A stretch of 41,177 bases of DNA, from positions 49,635 through 90,811 of the forward strand of contig PANZ01000009.1 of assembly GCA_002707835.1 (NCBI GenBank). The letters run 5' to 3'. Shown here piece by piece: positions 28,759-35,378 of the stretch. Every line of letters begins with the position of its first letter. Position 1 is the stretch's first letter. The position numbers were made by a program, and so were the translations under genes. The notes beneath the pieces are model-generated. The model was not told the DNA's origin. It did no database searches and worked only from the letters and a program-made list of their open reading frames with translations. The DNA comes from Chloroflexota bacterium. GTDB lineage: Bacteria > Chloroflexota > Dehalococcoidia > UBA2979.

Positions 28759-28794
28759 CTCATATATTTTTTAGATCTATATAACTTGCTTAGA

Positions 28795-30279
28795 ATGTCT
28801 AAAGTAGTGATAGACTGCAATTCTATGGAAAATAATCAACTTACTGCATTGATTTCTGATCTTTCACAAAAGATCGATAGTTCCAAAATATTAGATGCCC
28901 CTGAAGATCTTTTAGTTTACGAGTATGATACTTCAATTGATCGCGCTGTTCCTGAGGTTGTAATTCTTCCTACAACTGTTGATGAAGTATCTCATGCAGT
29001 AAAAGTGGCTGAACAATATAACCTTCCTGTGATACCTCGAGGATCTGGAACAGGATTTGCAGGTGGTGCACTTCCTGTGAAAGGTGGGATTCTAATTGTT
29101 CTTACTGCTATGAATGAAATAAGAGAAATTGACGCTGAAAATCGTATAGCTATCGTTGAACCAGGAGTTATCAACCTTCATCTTCATGAAGCACTCGAAC
29201 CATTTAATCTGATTTATGCTCCGGACCCTTCATCTCAACGGATATGCACTATTGGTGGCAATGTGGGTACTAATTCAGGTGGTCCTCATACTTTGGCACA
29301 TGGATCCACAGTTAACCACATTCTAGGAATCGAAGTGGTTTTACCTGGAGGAAGAATTGTTTGGTTGGGTGGTAAACAGTTAGACACTCCTGGGATAGAT
29401 TTGCGAGGAGTATTTGTAGGTTCCGAAGGAACCTTGGGGATAGTTACGGCTATATGTGTAAATCTAATTCCAACTAATGAAACTATTAGAACAATGCTTG
29501 CCATTTTCGATAGCATTGATTCAGCTTCAGAAGCTGTGTCGGCAATTATTCGAAGTGGTGTCATTCCTATGGCTATGGAAATGATGGATCAAGAAACTAT
29601 TAAGGTAGTAGAGCCTCGAGTGCAGGCTGGTTATCCAATTGATGCCGGTGCAGTTTTATTAATTGAAGTTGAGGGGGTAGCAGAATCTGTTGAACATGAT
29701 TCTGCAGTTGTTGTTAGTGCATGTAACGATCTAGGTGCGCGTGAGGTTAGAATAGCAAAAAGTACTTTAGAAAGAGAATCTCTTTGGGAAGGCCGTAAGT
29801 CCGCAATAGGTGCATTGGGCCAAACAGCACCAGCAATTTATTTACTTGATGGCGTAGTTCCACGAACAAAATTACCAGAAATATTAAATAAAGTTCTTTC
29901 AGCGAGTAGTGAAGCTGGATTTAAGTGTGCAAATATGTTCCATGCTGGTGACGGAAATCTTCATCCGACAGTTCTTTTCGATCCTTTAGAGCCTGGTGCT
30001 ACAGATCGTGTGTTAGAACTTGGAGGAGCGATTATGAAACTTTGTGTTGATGCAGGCGGTTCGATTACAGGAGAACATGGTATCGGTTTAGAAAAACGAT
30101 CGTATATGGAATGGGTATTCACAGAGTCAGATCTTGCTGCTATGGAGAAAGTACGTTTTTCCTTTGATCCTGTAGGGAATTTTAATCCCTGCAAAATCCT
30201 TCCTACAGGACATGGCTGTGCACAAGGTCATATGCAAATTACAGATCAACATTTTTCTGCACCAGGTGTTTATGTCTGA
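28795..30279 (+). CDS. glcD: FAD-linked oxidase subunit, glycolate oxidase GlcD-like
   Basis: This flavoprotein of about 494 residues belongs to the GlcD / D-lactate dehydrogenase group. The FAD-binding domain has VIPRGSGTGFAGGALPVKGG (about residues 78-97) and GTNSGGPHTLAHG. The C-terminal FAD-oxidase domain ends with NMFHAGDGNLHP and GSITGEHGIGLEK, which hold the active-site and metal-binding His. The enzyme oxidises a 2-hydroxy acid such as glycolate or D-lactate at the membrane. The start is uncertain: ATG at 28795 is used, but ATG at 28825 fits homologue length and neither has a clear ribosome binding site. The stop overlaps the glcE start. Confidence 0.92.
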   Translation: MSKVVIDCNSMENNQLTALISDLSQKIDSSKILDAPEDLLVYEYDTSIDRAVPEVVILPTTVDEVSHAVKVAEQYNLPVIPRGSGTGFAGGALPVKGGILIVLTAMNEIREIDAENRIAIVEPGVINLHLHEALEPFNLIYAPDPSSQRICTIGGNVGTNSGGPHTLAHGSTVNHILGIEVVLPGGRIVWLGGKQLDTPGIDLRGVFVGSEGTLGIVTAICVNLIPTNETIRTMLAIFDSIDSASEAVSAIIRSGVIPMAMEMMDQETIKVVEPRVQAGYPIDAGAVLLIEVEGVAESVEHDSAVVVSACNDLGAREVRIAKSTLERESLWEGRKSAIGALGQTAPAIYLLDGVVPRTKLPEILNKVLSASSEAGFKCANMFHAGDGNLHPTVLFDPLEPGATDRVLELGGAIMKLCVDAGGSITGEHGIGLEKRSYMEWVFTESDLAAMEKVRFSFDPVGNFNPCKILPTGHGCAQGHMQITDQHFSAPGVYV

Positions 30280-31540
30280 TATTCGACCACTCCCTCTATC
30301 TATGGAAGATTTTATTAAGACTTTACCTTCTGAAATCTGTAGCCAACCAGAATTATATGTAATTGATGGTAAAACTCCTCTCTCTGCATTTCGTCCGTTA
30401 CATATTGATCAGATATCTAAAATTATTCAATTTGCTAATCAGTACAATTTTGCTGTTAGTCCGCAAGGAAGTCGTACTGCACTTACTTTAGGTAGAAAAT
30501 TAGAGAGATATGACATTGCATTAGATACATCTGGGATATCCAAACTGGTTGAATATACTCCTGAAGATCTTACAGTCACAATTGAAGCAGGAGCGACATT
30601 ACAGGACCTTCAATCTGTTCTTGCAGAGTTTGGGCAATATCTCCCAGCCGATCCTAACCCAAGTAATGCTGTAACAATAGGTGGTTTGCTTGCTACAGCA
30701 CGCTCGGGTGCTTGGCGCGGAAATGTACCATCTACTCGAGATCTTATTTTAGGAATGACAGTAGTTATGGCCGATGGATCTATTGCAACAAGTGGAGGCC
30801 GAGTCGTAAAGAATGTGAGTGGATTTGATATGCATCGCCTCCATACAGGTGCCTTGGGTTCACTTGGTATTATATCGAGTGCTTCATTTAAAGTTCTTCC
30901 TATCCCAGAAAGAAGTGTTTCATTAATTTTGTATTGTTCAAATATTAATGAAGCTGACGAGTTGGCATTTATCCTTCGTAACAGTAATCTGCCTATTCGT
31001 GGATTGACTATTTTAGGTTCCAACACATCCCTTAAATTAGGATTTTCTCGAACTCCTAAGGTGCTGGTAGAATTTGCAGGAATTGAGGTATCAATTAATC
31101 GTTCTATCAAAGATACTGAGCAGATAATGAGTAGATTTGGAGAAATTGATCAATTAAAAGATTCTCAAATTTGGCATCAAATACGATCTTTTGCTAATGA
31201 ACAAAAAGAACAAATTGTTGTTCGATGTGGAGTACAGGCAAAAAATGTTGCTGAGGTAATTGAACTTGCTGAATCAAATACAGCTGCATGCGCTTGGGGC
31301 AATTTGACCTCCGGATCTGTTTGGGTAGTTTTTGAGGATATTAATGTTGTCACATTATCTAAATTCCGTTCGCAGATTTTAAGTTTGGAGGGATTTATGC
31401 AAGTCGAAGCAGCACCGATGGGTATTCGCGATATCTTTGATCCGTTTGGTGATATAGAAACAGATCTTGTACGTGCATTAAAACATCGATTTGATCCCTC
31501 AGGAATTTTGAATCCCGGTCGATGGATGGTTGGTGTGTAA
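30272..31540 (+). CDS. glcE: FAD-binding subunit, glycolate oxidase GlcE-like
   Basis: This 422-residue partner of GlcD carries a FAD_binding_4 domain: AVSPQGSRTALTLGRKL near residues 56-72, PADPNPSNAVTIGGLLATARSGAWRG (quoted in part), and VKNVSGFDMHRLHTGALGSLG. The ATG at 30272 overlaps the glcD stop by eight nt and has AGGTG just upstream; an earlier in-frame start inside glcD was discarded. GlcE has no own catalytic C-terminal half of the GlcD type, as usual for this subunit. It is directly followed by glcF. Confidence 0.9.
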   Translation: MSDIRPLPLSMEDFIKTLPSEICSQPELYVIDGKTPLSAFRPLHIDQISKIIQFANQYNFAVSPQGSRTALTLGRKLERYDIALDTSGISKLVEYTPEDLTVTIEAGATLQDLQSVLAEFGQYLPADPNPSNAVTIGGLLATARSGAWRGNVPSTRDLILGMTVVMADGSIATSGGRVVKNVSGFDMHRLHTGALGSLGIISSASFKVLPIPERSVSLILYCSNINEADELAFILRNSNLPIRGLTILGSNTSLKLGFSRTPKVLVEFAGIEVSINRSIKDTEQIMSRFGEIDQLKDSQIWHQIRSFANEQKEQIVVRCGVQAKNVAEVIELAESNTAACAWGNLTSGSVWVVFEDINVVTLSKFRSQILSLEGFMQVEAAPMGIRDIFDPFGDIETDLVRALKHRFDPSGILNPGRWMVGV

Positions 31541-32848
31541 ATGTCTTTTGTACCAATTAAATTTGCGGGTAGTGATATTCCAACGGTAGAAGATCTTCGC
31601 AATTGTATACATTGTGGTTTTTGCCTGCCATCATGTCCCACATATATAGCTACTGGTCATGAATTGGAATCCCCCCGAGGTAGGTTGCACCTTATTGATT
31701 CTGTTCGTTCAGGTCGTGTCGATATAAATGATCGATTGCTAGGGCATCTAGATCTATGTCTTCAATGTCGTGCTTGTGAAACTGCATGTCCTTCTGGTGT
31801 GCCATATGGACGAATTATGGAAGATGCGCGTGCGTCGATTATGGCTAATCCCAAATCGTTACAACCCCGACAATGGAGATTGCGTACTTTTTTACTCCGT
31901 TATGTGATTACTAAGCCAATGATTTTACGATTTGCAATATTTCCATTACGTATTTACTCAAGGATAAAATTGCAAAGTTTATTTAGAAATCATATTTCTA
32001 AGTGGTTTCCAAAACGCCTTGCTAATTTAGAGGCATTGATTCCTGAGATCAGTTCAAAAAGTTTTCGTCGAAGAGGAATTTTAGCTTCTCCCGAAAAAGC
32101 TTCTGCTCGTGTCGCATTGATTATGGGATGTGTGCAAGGTGAAATGTTTCCTCAAACACATGAGGCAACAATCGGTGTGCTAGAAGAATTGAATTGTGAA
32201 GTAATAGCACCACCATCTCAGGTGTGTTGTGGGGCACTCCACCTGCACGCAGGTGATATGCAAAAAAGTCGTGAATTAGCAAAGAAAAATATTGAAGTAT
32301 TTGAAGAATATCAAGTTGATGCGATTTTAGTAAATGCTGCAGGTTGTGGTTCTACTTTGAAAGAATATGGTCATTTGCTTCGCGAAGATGATAAATGGGC
32401 GAAACGCGCAACTGCTTTCTCTAATCAAGTTCAAGATATTTTAGAATTTGTAGAACCGCGCATGCAAAATAATAATTTACAAAAAAATCTTTCAACCCTT
32501 AATATTAATGTCACTTTACAAGACTCGTGCCATCTTGCTCATGCACAAGGAATTAGAGAAGCTCCAAGGAAAATTTTGAATCAAATTCCTGGTCTGAGTC
32601 TCCATGAAATGCGTAATCCTGATCGATGTTGTGGTTCTGCAGGGATTTATTCTTTGGTGCAACCAGAGATGTCGAACAACATTCTTGCGACTAAAATGGA
32701 AGATATTGTTGCCACTGAAAGTTCAATTATTTGCACCGCTAACCCAGGCTGTACATTGCAATTACAATCTGGTGTGAGGCAAAGCGAGCTTGATGCAGAA
32801 GTTCTACATGTAATAGATCTACTTTACAGATCTTTATCGCAAAAATAG
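31541..32848 (+). CDS. glcF: Iron-sulfur subunit, glycolate oxidase GlcF-like
   Basis: This 435-residue protein passes electrons from the flavin subunits to the respiratory chain. Two 4Fe-4S clusters are seen: C22-C25-C28-C32 (CIHCGFCLPSCP) and C73-C76-C79-C83 (CLQCRACETACP). Two CCG domains follow, with QVCCGALHLHAG and DRCCGSAGIYSL, typical of GlcF and HdrD-like proteins. The ATG directly abuts the glcE stop (TAAATG). It ends 9 nt from the convergent selenoprotein gene. Confidence 0.95.
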   Translation: MSFVPIKFAGSDIPTVEDLRNCIHCGFCLPSCPTYIATGHELESPRGRLHLIDSVRSGRVDINDRLLGHLDLCLQCRACETACPSGVPYGRIMEDARASIMANPKSLQPRQWRLRTFLLRYVITKPMILRFAIFPLRIYSRIKLQSLFRNHISKWFPKRLANLEALIPEISSKSFRRRGILASPEKASARVALIMGCVQGEMFPQTHEATIGVLEELNCEVIAPPSQVCCGALHLHAGDMQKSRELAKKNIEVFEEYQVDAILVNAAGCGSTLKEYGHLLREDDKWAKRATAFSNQVQDILEFVEPRMQNNNLQKNLSTLNINVTLQDSCHLAHAQGIREAPRKILNQIPGLSLHEMRNPDRCCGSAGIYSLVQPEMSNNILATKMEDIVATESSIICTANPGCTLQLQSGVRQSELDAEVLHVIDLLYRSLSQK

Positions 32849-32857
32849 TACTTACAA

Positions 32858-33394
32858 TTACTTACCTAATAGTATTTTGCATCCTTGTAAGTACGACTCT
32901 TTAGCTCGTTCACGTAATTCATCTTCATTTCTACTGCCAATAGGGTGATCTATAAGCGCAAACTTAAAATCAGGTAGACCTAGAGTTTTTGCTGTAGCCT
33001 CTCCAGTTGGCTGAAAAGGGTGTGTACATAAGGTTAAGGCTGGGATGTTTAATTTTTCTAAAGTAATACCATCGTGCACACTGCACGTTGAGCACGATCC
33101 TCAGTCACCAACGGCTGTAATCATGAAATCAACATTGGCTCGTACTATTGTGTCAATAATATCTTGAGGGCAAGGGCGTGAAGCACTGTGTTTATTCAGA
33201 TCTAAAATAATCTGACTTTGGTGGTTTTCTTCGAAAAATTCTGCGGTGTACCTAAGAAGAACATCAGCATTAAATTTTCCATTTGAGAGAAGGGCAATTT
33301 TTGTGTTGCTGAGATCTTTTAATCTTGGTGCAAGATTGAAAGATCGATCCTTAGTTTGATCATTTATTTTTGGATTATATAGTTCTAATGTCAT
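32858..33394 (-). CDS. UGSC-family selenoprotein with in-frame TGA as selenocysteine
   Basis: This is one 178-residue protein interrupted by TGA at 33101-33103, which I read as Sec98. The frame is open and uninterrupted on both sides. The context is GD-U-GSCSTCSVHDG, with Cys101 and Cys104 after Sec, matching the UGSC-containing selenoprotein family described from marine metagenomes. A hairpin that fits a bacterial SECIS starts 13 nt after the TGA. AAGGAT precedes the ATG at 33394. The N-terminal half (about 30-97) has Rossmann-like features such as DLSNTKIALLSNGKFNAD and ends in DFMITAVGD before Sec; the C-terminal half is a short alpha/beta tail. The biochemical role is unknown; a redox-active Sec-x-x-Cys site is likely. 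No selA, selB, selC or selD is in this window. Confidence 0.88.
33073..33087 (-). promoter_or_regulatory. Candidate bacterial SECIS hairpin
   Basis: On the coding strand CGTGC and GCACG form a 5-bp stem around the loop AGTGT. There are 18 nt between the TGA and the loop, within the range known for SelB-dependent elements. G in the second loop position fits the known preference. A competing pairing ATCGTGC/GCACGAT uses the same 3' side and could form a longer stem. Confidence 0.65.
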
Positions 33395-33414
33395 GATTAT
33401 CCTTACTTCGGTTA

Positions 33415-34521
33415 TTAAATTACCTCAATTTGCATTAAAGAATTTCTTGCTCTACTCCATGAAGGCAAGAACGAAGAATGAGCTCCTGCATCACCACCTC
33501 CAACAAGTAGCAAAATATCTTCAGGCGCTATTCCTCGATGATATTGCTTGGGATCTGTTTTGCGGATAATTTGTTGATCTATTTCGAATTGTGTTTCTCC
33601 AGGAGAATAGTTTTCTGATTGTTCTGGAGCTTGGATTGTTTGATCCATGGGAGGACGTCCTATCCGTTCTAAATCTTCTACACTGCGCCACGCATTATTA
33701 AATAGATATTCCTGCACTTTTTCTCGAGTCCAGTTTTTATCAGAACCTATAATTTCAGCAGTTTCAGGTGAGAGCACAACTACTGATTGTCCATGTGTAA
33801 GGGAGTCTAGACAGCTCATTGAATCAGCAACAGTTAATAAAGCTTCTTCTGGAGTGGAGGCAAAATGATTCTCAATATTATGAAAACCTCCAGCTGCAAA
33901 AACTACAACTATTGATTCATCTGAATATCCAAAATGCTCATTTAAGCTAGGCCAAGGACTTTTTTCAGCCCTTTCAGCTATACATAGCGAATATTTCCCA
34001 GGGTTCCCTTGTGTTGATCGATCTGTGATGTTGGGTTCCATATGGAATACGTTCATATGAATTAATCTTATTGCACGTCCAATTGACGCATTGGCTCTGT
34101 TACCAGAGCCAAATAAATTTCCACTTGAATTCATTTCTAATTGATCAACGATTGGGCCACTGACTATGACCATATGAGCTGATCCACCTGTGCTGGCAGT
34201 AGAGCCATGATAATTGAAATCTGGCTTGGACATAGCTCGTAACGCTGCTATCACAACAGGGAAATGCGAGGGCAAGCATCCTGCCATTACTGCATTAGTA
34301 GCAGCTGCGTGTGCACTGCATTTTTTTTGTGTTGTAATGTGTTCTGCAATTGTCTCAAAGGGATCGAGCTTTACTTCATCCAACATTGCATCTACTAGTT
34401 CAATTGCAGGAGGAATAACTGGTAATCCATCAGTCCAGCCGGATTTGTAACATAACTCAATCGCGTTATTTAAGTTATCGACTTTAATTGGTGAATTTCT
34501 CGAATCTGATGTCGATGTCAT
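33415..34521 (-). CDS. Uncharacterised protein paired with the UGSC selenoprotein
   Basis: This 368-residue cytoplasmic protein has no known catalytic motif that I recognise. Likely conserved segments are GWTDGLPVIPPAIELVD (about residues 33-49), AAATNAVMAGCLPSHFPVVIAA with a Cys, STASTGGSAHMVIVSGP, GNRANASIGRAIRLI, and the C-terminal LLLVGGGDAGAHSSFLPSW. I recall similar motif sets in uncharacterised proteins near UGSC proteins, but have not verified it. It starts 17 nt after the luciferase-like gene and ends 20 nt before the selenoprotein, with AAGGAT before its ATG. A shared function with the selenoprotein is inferred from this operon. Confidence 0.75.
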   Translation of the reverse strand: MTSTSDSRNSPIKVDNLNNAIELCYKSGWTDGLPVIPPAIELVDAMLDEVKLDPFETIAEHITTQKKCSAHAAATNAVMAGCLPSHFPVVIAALRAMSKPDFNYHGSTASTGGSAHMVIVSGPIVDQLEMNSSGNLFGSGNRANASIGRAIRLIHMNVFHMEPNITDRSTQGNPGKYSLCIAERAEKSPWPSLNEHFGYSDESIVVVFAAGGFHNIENHFASTPEEALLTVADSMSCLDSLTHGQSVVVLSPETAEIIGSDKNWTREKVQEYLFNNAWRSVEDLERIGRPPMDQTIQAPEQSENYSPGETQFEIDQQIIRKTDPKQYHRGIAPEDILLLVGGGDAGAHSSFLPSWSRARNSLMQIEVI

Positions 34522-34538: not shown

Positions 34539-35378
34539 TTAATTAGAAAAAGTTTCAATTATCGATGCGTATTGATCTAATACTGGCAGTATTTGTTCTT
34601 TTTCTGCTGATTTCAGGCGCAATATTGCTCTGTCTACACCCGCACTTGCTAACTCTATAATACTTTTTTCATCGCTGCTAGCACCAAAGACAGAGATTGG
34701 TATTGTGTTGCGACCAGATTCCAGTGCAAGTTCTTGTAATTCAGGTATTCTATTTAAATATTCTCCTCGATTACCAATAGGCATCCATTCATCACCGTAT
34801 CGTATAACTCTCTTCAGTGTATTTGCACCATTCCCACCTACAATTATTGGAGGATGAGGTTTTTGTAATGGTTTAGGCCATTGCCAGAGAGGATCAAAAT
34901 TAACAAATTCTCCGTGATATTCTGCAACATTTTGGGTCCAGATATTTTTCATTGCTTCAATACGTTCGCGCATGAGCTTCCATCGTCTTTCAGGTGACGT
35001 GCCATGATTTCTCATTTCTTCACGGTTCCATCCTCCTCCAACACCTAGCAGAACTCGTCCATTTGAGATGATGTCTAAAGTAGAAATTTCTTTGGCTAGA
35101 ATAATTGGATCTCTTTCAACTATTAGTGCAATTCCTGTTGCTAATTTTATATTTTTGGTTGAAGCTGCGATTGCCCCTAAAGTTATGAATGGATCAAAAG
35201 TATGTGCGTATTCTTTAGGTAAGTCGCCTCCTCCAGGGAATGGAGTTTCTCTATTAACTGGTATATGTGTATGTTCTGGAAGAAAAATTGATTCAAATCC
35301 TCTAGCTTCTGCTTCTTGCGCTAGAATGATTGGGTTGATTGCATAATCAGTTGGGAAAATTGTGAGTCCGAATTTCAT
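34539..35378 (-). CDS. LLM-class F420-dependent oxidoreductase (luciferase-like)
   Basis: This 279-residue protein has the bacterial luciferase TIM-barrel fold. LAQEAEARGFESIFLPEHTH is the early barrel part. GVGGGWNREEMRNHG and PPIIVGGNGANTLKR are segments of the F420-dependent branch (TIGR03619-like). Such enzymes use F420 or FMN to oxidise or monooxygenate small organic compounds. The gene is first in the operon with the unknown protein and the selenoprotein. TAAGGAA precedes the ATG. F420 use is inferred from similarity and was not tested. Confidence 0.88.
   Translation of the reverse strand: MKFGLTIFPTDYAINPIILAQEAEARGFESIFLPEHTHIPVNRETPFPGGGDLPKEYAHTFDPFITLGAIAASTKNIKLATGIALIVERDPIILAKEISTLDIISNGRVLLGVGGGWNREEMRNHGTSPERRWKLMRERIEAMKNIWTQNVAEYHGEFVNFDPLWQWPKPLQKPHPPIIVGGNGANTLKRVIRYGDEWMPIGNRGEYLNRIPELQELALESGRNTIPISVFGASSDEKSIIELASAGVDRAILRLKSAEKEQILPVLDQYASIIETFSN

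Follow-up and report, generated by a model that had tools for sequence, protein, structure and literature searches.

The UGSC locus

The window, a stretch of 41,177 nt from a Chloroflexota contig, carries on its minus strand a predicted selenoprotein gene of the UGSC family, preceded by two further genes of the same orientation. From upstream to downstream, the features of this locus, with the basis of each in parentheses, are:

34539..35378, minus: LLM-class (luciferase-like) oxidoreductase gene, TIGR03619, separated by 17 nt from the downstream partner gene (profile scans)
33415..34521, minus: partner gene encoding 368 aa, P family, separated by 20 nt from the downstream UGSC gene (unmatched by Pfam and NCBIfam; adjacency, co-occurrence, AF2 model)
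33401..33404, minus: Shine-Dalgarno-like AAGG, 6 nt 5' of the UGSC ATG (sequence)
32858..33394, minus: UGSC-family selenoprotein gene, 178 aa plus TAA, Sec98 (translation with TGA as U)
33101-33103, minus: in-frame TGA, residue 98, the U of UGSCSTC in a UxxCxxC motif (translation; homologue conservation)
33073..33087, minus: bSECIS hairpin CGUGC-AGUGU-GCACG, within the coding sequence, 13 nt 3' of the UGA (folding, pairing, covariation, synonymous-codon test)

A first-pass annotation had described two same-frame coding pieces split by a TGA, with a start and ribosome binding site on the first piece. We find a single frame of 178 aa on the minus strand, a strand left unstated in that annotation, and the only TGA inside it stands in AVGD-U-GSCSTCSVHDG. 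The ATG at 33394-33392 (minus) lies 20 nt past the TAA of the upstream gene and is preceded by AAGG at the distance given above, in agreement with the proposed start. Under table 11, the ORF comprises only the first 97 aa (33101-33394), and thus, a naive gene caller would truncate the gene.

In a Pfam scan, the full translation matches PF24696 (E = 1.4e-45; 156 bits versus a cut-off of 25) over residues 6-172, a range that spans the TGA, while the match to NF041046 scores 126.8 bits versus a cut-off of 125. The U/C-G-S-C motif of the family is present as UGSC at residues 98-101. Judged by these profile matches, the product of 33394..32858 (minus) belongs to an established selenoprotein family, UGSC (PF24696/NF041046), which accounted for 8.2% of selenoprotein genes in 2021 (PMC9402790). 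The family assignment of the first-pass annotation is thereby upheld, whereas its description of an "unannotated-looking selenoprotein" stands as to the selenoprotein and is only relative as to the annotation, as both models already describe the family as a (seleno)protein.

Decoding of UGA98 as selenocysteine

The genome from which the window derives (1.64 Mb, 94% complete) encodes SelA, SelB, SelD and a tRNA-Sec with anticodon TCA (UCA), which together are the genes that the first-pass annotation had named as a check on its reading of the TGA as Sec. Its SelD is itself of the Sec type, with an in-frame TGA of its own (CAGUAGK). Within the family of this genome, 22 of 44 genomes contain UGSC proteins above the cut-off, and the TGA is found at the motif in 53/53 distinct domains. 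The TGA is likewise present in 121 of 126 distinct UGSC domains from a wider sample of the phylum, and the UxxC motif is kept in all 116 distinct sequences of the SECIS region. Among the five domains that lack the TGA, one has Cys (L186), and four are fused proteins with T, M or A at the site, and hence neither Sec nor Cys (L066:3021-4622, L067:2925-4526, L185:1-951 and L183:9424-11001). These four still retain the partner domain, and it is possible that they are neofunctionalized or inactive.

Comparison with the nearest relatives gives dN/dS values of 0.13 before and 0.07 after the TGA (versus L097), and of 0.14 before and 0.10 after (versus L051). By this measure, purifying selection does not weaken past the TGA.

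A bSECIS had been predicted within 33050-33103, and a hairpin is indeed located at 33087-33073. The full 5-bp stem is present in 88 of 102 distinct sequences, compared with a mean of 21 and a maximum of 36 when the same proteins are randomly recoded with synonymous codons (1000 runs). Two of the stem pairs display two-sided changes: one is C-G in 68 sequences and G-C in 26, while the other is T-A in 77 and C-G in 7. At the serine of the loop, AGT is used in 85/85 cases, versus a background of 12% across the same genes. Taken alone, the window sequence would have both the stem and the AGT with a chance of 0.02 under synonymous codons, and thus, the strength of the bSECIS evidence rests on the comparison. 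The test left out the 14 distinct sequences of a fused, USTC-type subclade, in which the lower two stem pairs are missing at that place. In this subclade, which consists of L157 and 13 relatives, USTC replaces UGSC, and the hairpin that follows the UGA is unlike the main bSECIS.

Taken together, the conserved TGA, the machinery, the bSECIS and the selection downstream of the TGA leave little doubt that UGA98 is read as selenocysteine and that the UGSC gene is a genuine selenoprotein gene, as originally proposed. That the TGA is a true stop, whether in a pseudogene, through a sequencing error or as the end of a functional 97-aa fragment, is consistent with the end of the table 11 frame at 33101, but is exceedingly improbable given these same four lines of evidence. 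Equally far-fetched is a genome-wide reading of TGA as another residue such as Trp, for which the open frame speaks and nothing beyond it, whereas TGA ends 5 of the 32 large ORFs in the window as an ordinary stop, tRNA-Sec(UCA) and SelB are present, and the residue aligns with the Sec of known families.

The window copy is one of four UGSC paralogues in this genome, and the four (L057, L058, L059 and the window) fall in different subclades. The named relatives of the UGSC gene are MAGs of Dehalococcoidia/Chloroflexi, a placement that fits a SAR202-like host, as drawn from the relatives of one gene rather than from a marker tree. We found no joint mention of SAR202 and selenoproteins in the literature searched, and the SAR202 papers searched were without selenium.

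A near-obligate partner gene

The gene directly upstream, which went unmentioned in the first-pass annotation, probably offers more information than the rest of the locus. Pfam and NCBIfam scans yielded no match for the window partner or for five diverse homologues. Nevertheless, a member of this family is adjacent to or fused with 120 of the 126 UGSC domains, with 53 in the order partner-UGSC, 30 in the order UGSC-partner (83 on the same strand) and 37 fused. Fusions were counted only where no stop separates the two domains, and long open frames alone were not taken. For the other 6 domains, a same-strand search of 3 kb revealed no partner; two of these lie at contig ends, one has a partner approximately 3 kb away, and one has a partner on the opposite strand. 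On a tree of the 126 UGSC domains, the arrangement requires 13 changes when "not found" is counted as a label, and well-supported branches place at least three origins of fusion, with the linkage persisting throughout. One UGSC locus of the window's genome (L058) contains two consecutive partner-family genes.

The two families also co-occur across genomes. In a set of 400 genomes of the phylum, UGSC is found in 42, the partner in 42 and both in 41, such that the two occur together in 41 of the 43 genomes that are positive for either. On the basis of adjacency, fusion and co-occurrence, and of the confident single-chain model obtained for a natural fusion, UGSC and its partner very probably constitute an obligate two-subunit unit, and a physical complex of the two would be expected. 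The Global Ocean Sampling survey reported UGSC fused to an unclassified domain, "Unknown_1" (PMC2398784). In the UGSC literature searched, we found no account of a near-obligate partner, of repeated fusion or of a relation to GrdB/PrdB.

Neighboring genes and a candidate electron donor

The LLM oxidoreductase, partner and UGSC genes probably form a three-gene operon with the LLM gene first, an order that we observe in the nearest relatives (L097 and L051) alone. Convergent with this operon, at 28786-32848 of the window, are, in succession, two FAD-linked oxidase genes and a gene for a CCG-domain Fe-S protein, an assemblage that is glycolate-oxidase-like.

A second type of neighbor recurs more widely. 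In 14 UGSC loci, we observe a TrxR-like Pyr_redox_2 gene of 302-343 aa with a CxxC motif (SYCATCD and variants), which lies on the same strand and less than 400 bp from the pair in 12 of the 14 and is distributed over several UGSC subclades. Such a gene adjoins one of the four copies in the window's genome (L059), and none is found beside the window copy itself. These associations lead us to lean slightly toward a TrxR-type electron supply to the UGSC-partner pair.

Relation to GrdB/PrdB and predicted folds

When a profile of 53 UGSC proteins was compared by HHalign with GrdB and PrdB-like proteins drawn from the same phylum, the match to PrdB-like proteins reached 96.9% (E = 1.6e-10) and that to GrdB 95.8% (E = 6.8e-9), both being single-target E-values, and in both alignments Sec falls on Sec. 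As controls, eight of nine unrelated neighbor families gave at most 1.2%, the ninth, a Rossmann dehydrogenase, gave 48%, and reversed profiles gave at most 0.9%. The likeness spans about 75 residues around Sec rather than the whole protein, and PF07355 (GrdB/PrdB) has no match to the window UGSC protein in the Pfam scan. From these profile comparisons, we consider it highly likely that the Sec region of UGSC is homologous to that of GrdB/PrdB. Elsewhere in the phylum, many Chloroflexota genomes encode short PrdB-like proteins whose genes contain an in-frame TGA, giving UPxC or UGLC (L210, L212, L227 and others), and one Chloroflexota genome (G212) has 6 GrdB and 18 GrdE-type matches, an unusual multiplication of glycine/betaine-reductase-type genes.

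The partner shows no such kinship. Its comparison with GrdE, GrdB and PrdB-like profiles revealed no homology (0.1% by HHalign for GrdE, PF09338), and neither the partner alignment nor the fused alignment matched any PDB sequence. The AF2 model of the window partner alone is of high confidence (pLDDT 90.8, pTM 0.91), and its matches to PDB folds are weak (best E = 6e-4, TM 0.25). Class I fumarate hydratases and Toblerone-fold cyclic amide hydrolases head the list, which would be in keeping with the pair acting as a hydrolase, lyase or transferase that employs Sec as a nucleophile or metal ligand. With TM values of at most 0.25, however, the matches are too weak to identify the partner as either enzyme, and the strict conservation of UxxC together with the TrxR-like neighbors favors redox chemistry; we therefore regard a non-redox role of this kind as unlikely.

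UGSC has been described as Trx-like with a UxxC redox motif and of unknown function (PMC2398784, PMC13188914), from which it could be a thioredoxin-fold thiol oxidoreductase with the partner as its client or accessory. A natural fusion (L061:2733-4424) modeled by AF2 as one chain (pLDDT 95.2, pTM 0.94) gives a different picture. In the UGSC part of this model, strands and helices alternate, and Sec opens the helix that follows strand four or five. The best 50 PDB matches of the fused model are generic alpha/beta folds (among them lumazine-synthase and FtsZ-like proteins) that cover part of the chain, with no thioredoxin in this set, and the UGSC profile matches GrdB/PrdB. The published Trx-like fold finds no support in the predicted structure, and a thioredoxin-type identity appears unlikely.

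Proposed mechanism

We favor, as moderately likely overall, a two-component redox enzyme. SelB and tRNA-Sec almost certainly decode UGA98 at the bSECIS inside the coding sequence, giving a UGSC protein that would serve as the Sec subunit, with the 368-aa partner as the other subunit. As the Sec region is homologous to that of GrdB/PrdB, the chemistry is likely to be GrdB/PrdB-like: the selenolate of UxxC(xxC) may attack and reductively cleave a small organic substrate held together with the partner, after which Sec98 would end in a Se-S bond with C101. A TrxR-like flavoprotein could then re-reduce the Sec subunit using NAD(P)H. Because the partner has no detectable homology to GrdE, the mechanism of the known reductases is not directly transferable.

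The individual parts of this proposal differ in strength. A substrate-reducing enzyme is somewhat preferred over a general thiol oxidoreductase. The expansion of paralogues, together with neighboring genes such as those for LLM monooxygenases, CoA-transferases and dehydrogenases, suggests that the pair participates in the catabolism of diverse dissolved organic compounds. Taken loosely, the whole chain of a Sec subunit with its partner, GrdB/PrdB-like chemistry, re-reduction by a TrxR-like protein and organic catabolism is reasonably probable. More tentatively, and with the balance of our judgment somewhat against it, the pair may represent an undescribed class of two-subunit selenoenzyme, in which a GrdB/PrdB-type Sec subunit is combined with a non-pyruvoyl substrate subunit and dedicated TrxR-like recharging, and which has expanded in SAR202-type bacteria for the reduction of different dissolved organics.

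The near-obligate partner, the kinship with glycine and proline reductases and the candidate electron donor provide a concrete and testable biochemical set-up for UGSC, which would link selenium demand to SAR202-type turnover of organic matter.

Comparison with known systems

The window gene resembles the UGSC family, known from Global Ocean Sampling as "UGSC-containing protein", in its full-length match, in the placement of Sec in UxxC, in its origin from a marine bacterium and in its bSECIS, and no feature sets it outside the family. With thioredoxin-fold selenoproteins, it shares the UxxC motif, whereas neither its predicted fold nor the profile match lends support to a thioredoxin fold. 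A functional parallel that we propose is with GrdB/PrdB, i.e., selenoprotein B of glycine, sarcosine and betaine reductase and its D-proline reductase counterpart (PF07355). UGSC proteins differ from these in being shorter and unmatched by PF07355, and in having a partner without homology to GrdE, which is the pyruvoyl-type subunit in the known reductases. Their Sec regions are homologous and align Sec with Sec, both have UxxC(xxC) followed by E..G(I/L)P, and GrdB/PrdB also act with a second subunit, as we propose for UGSC.
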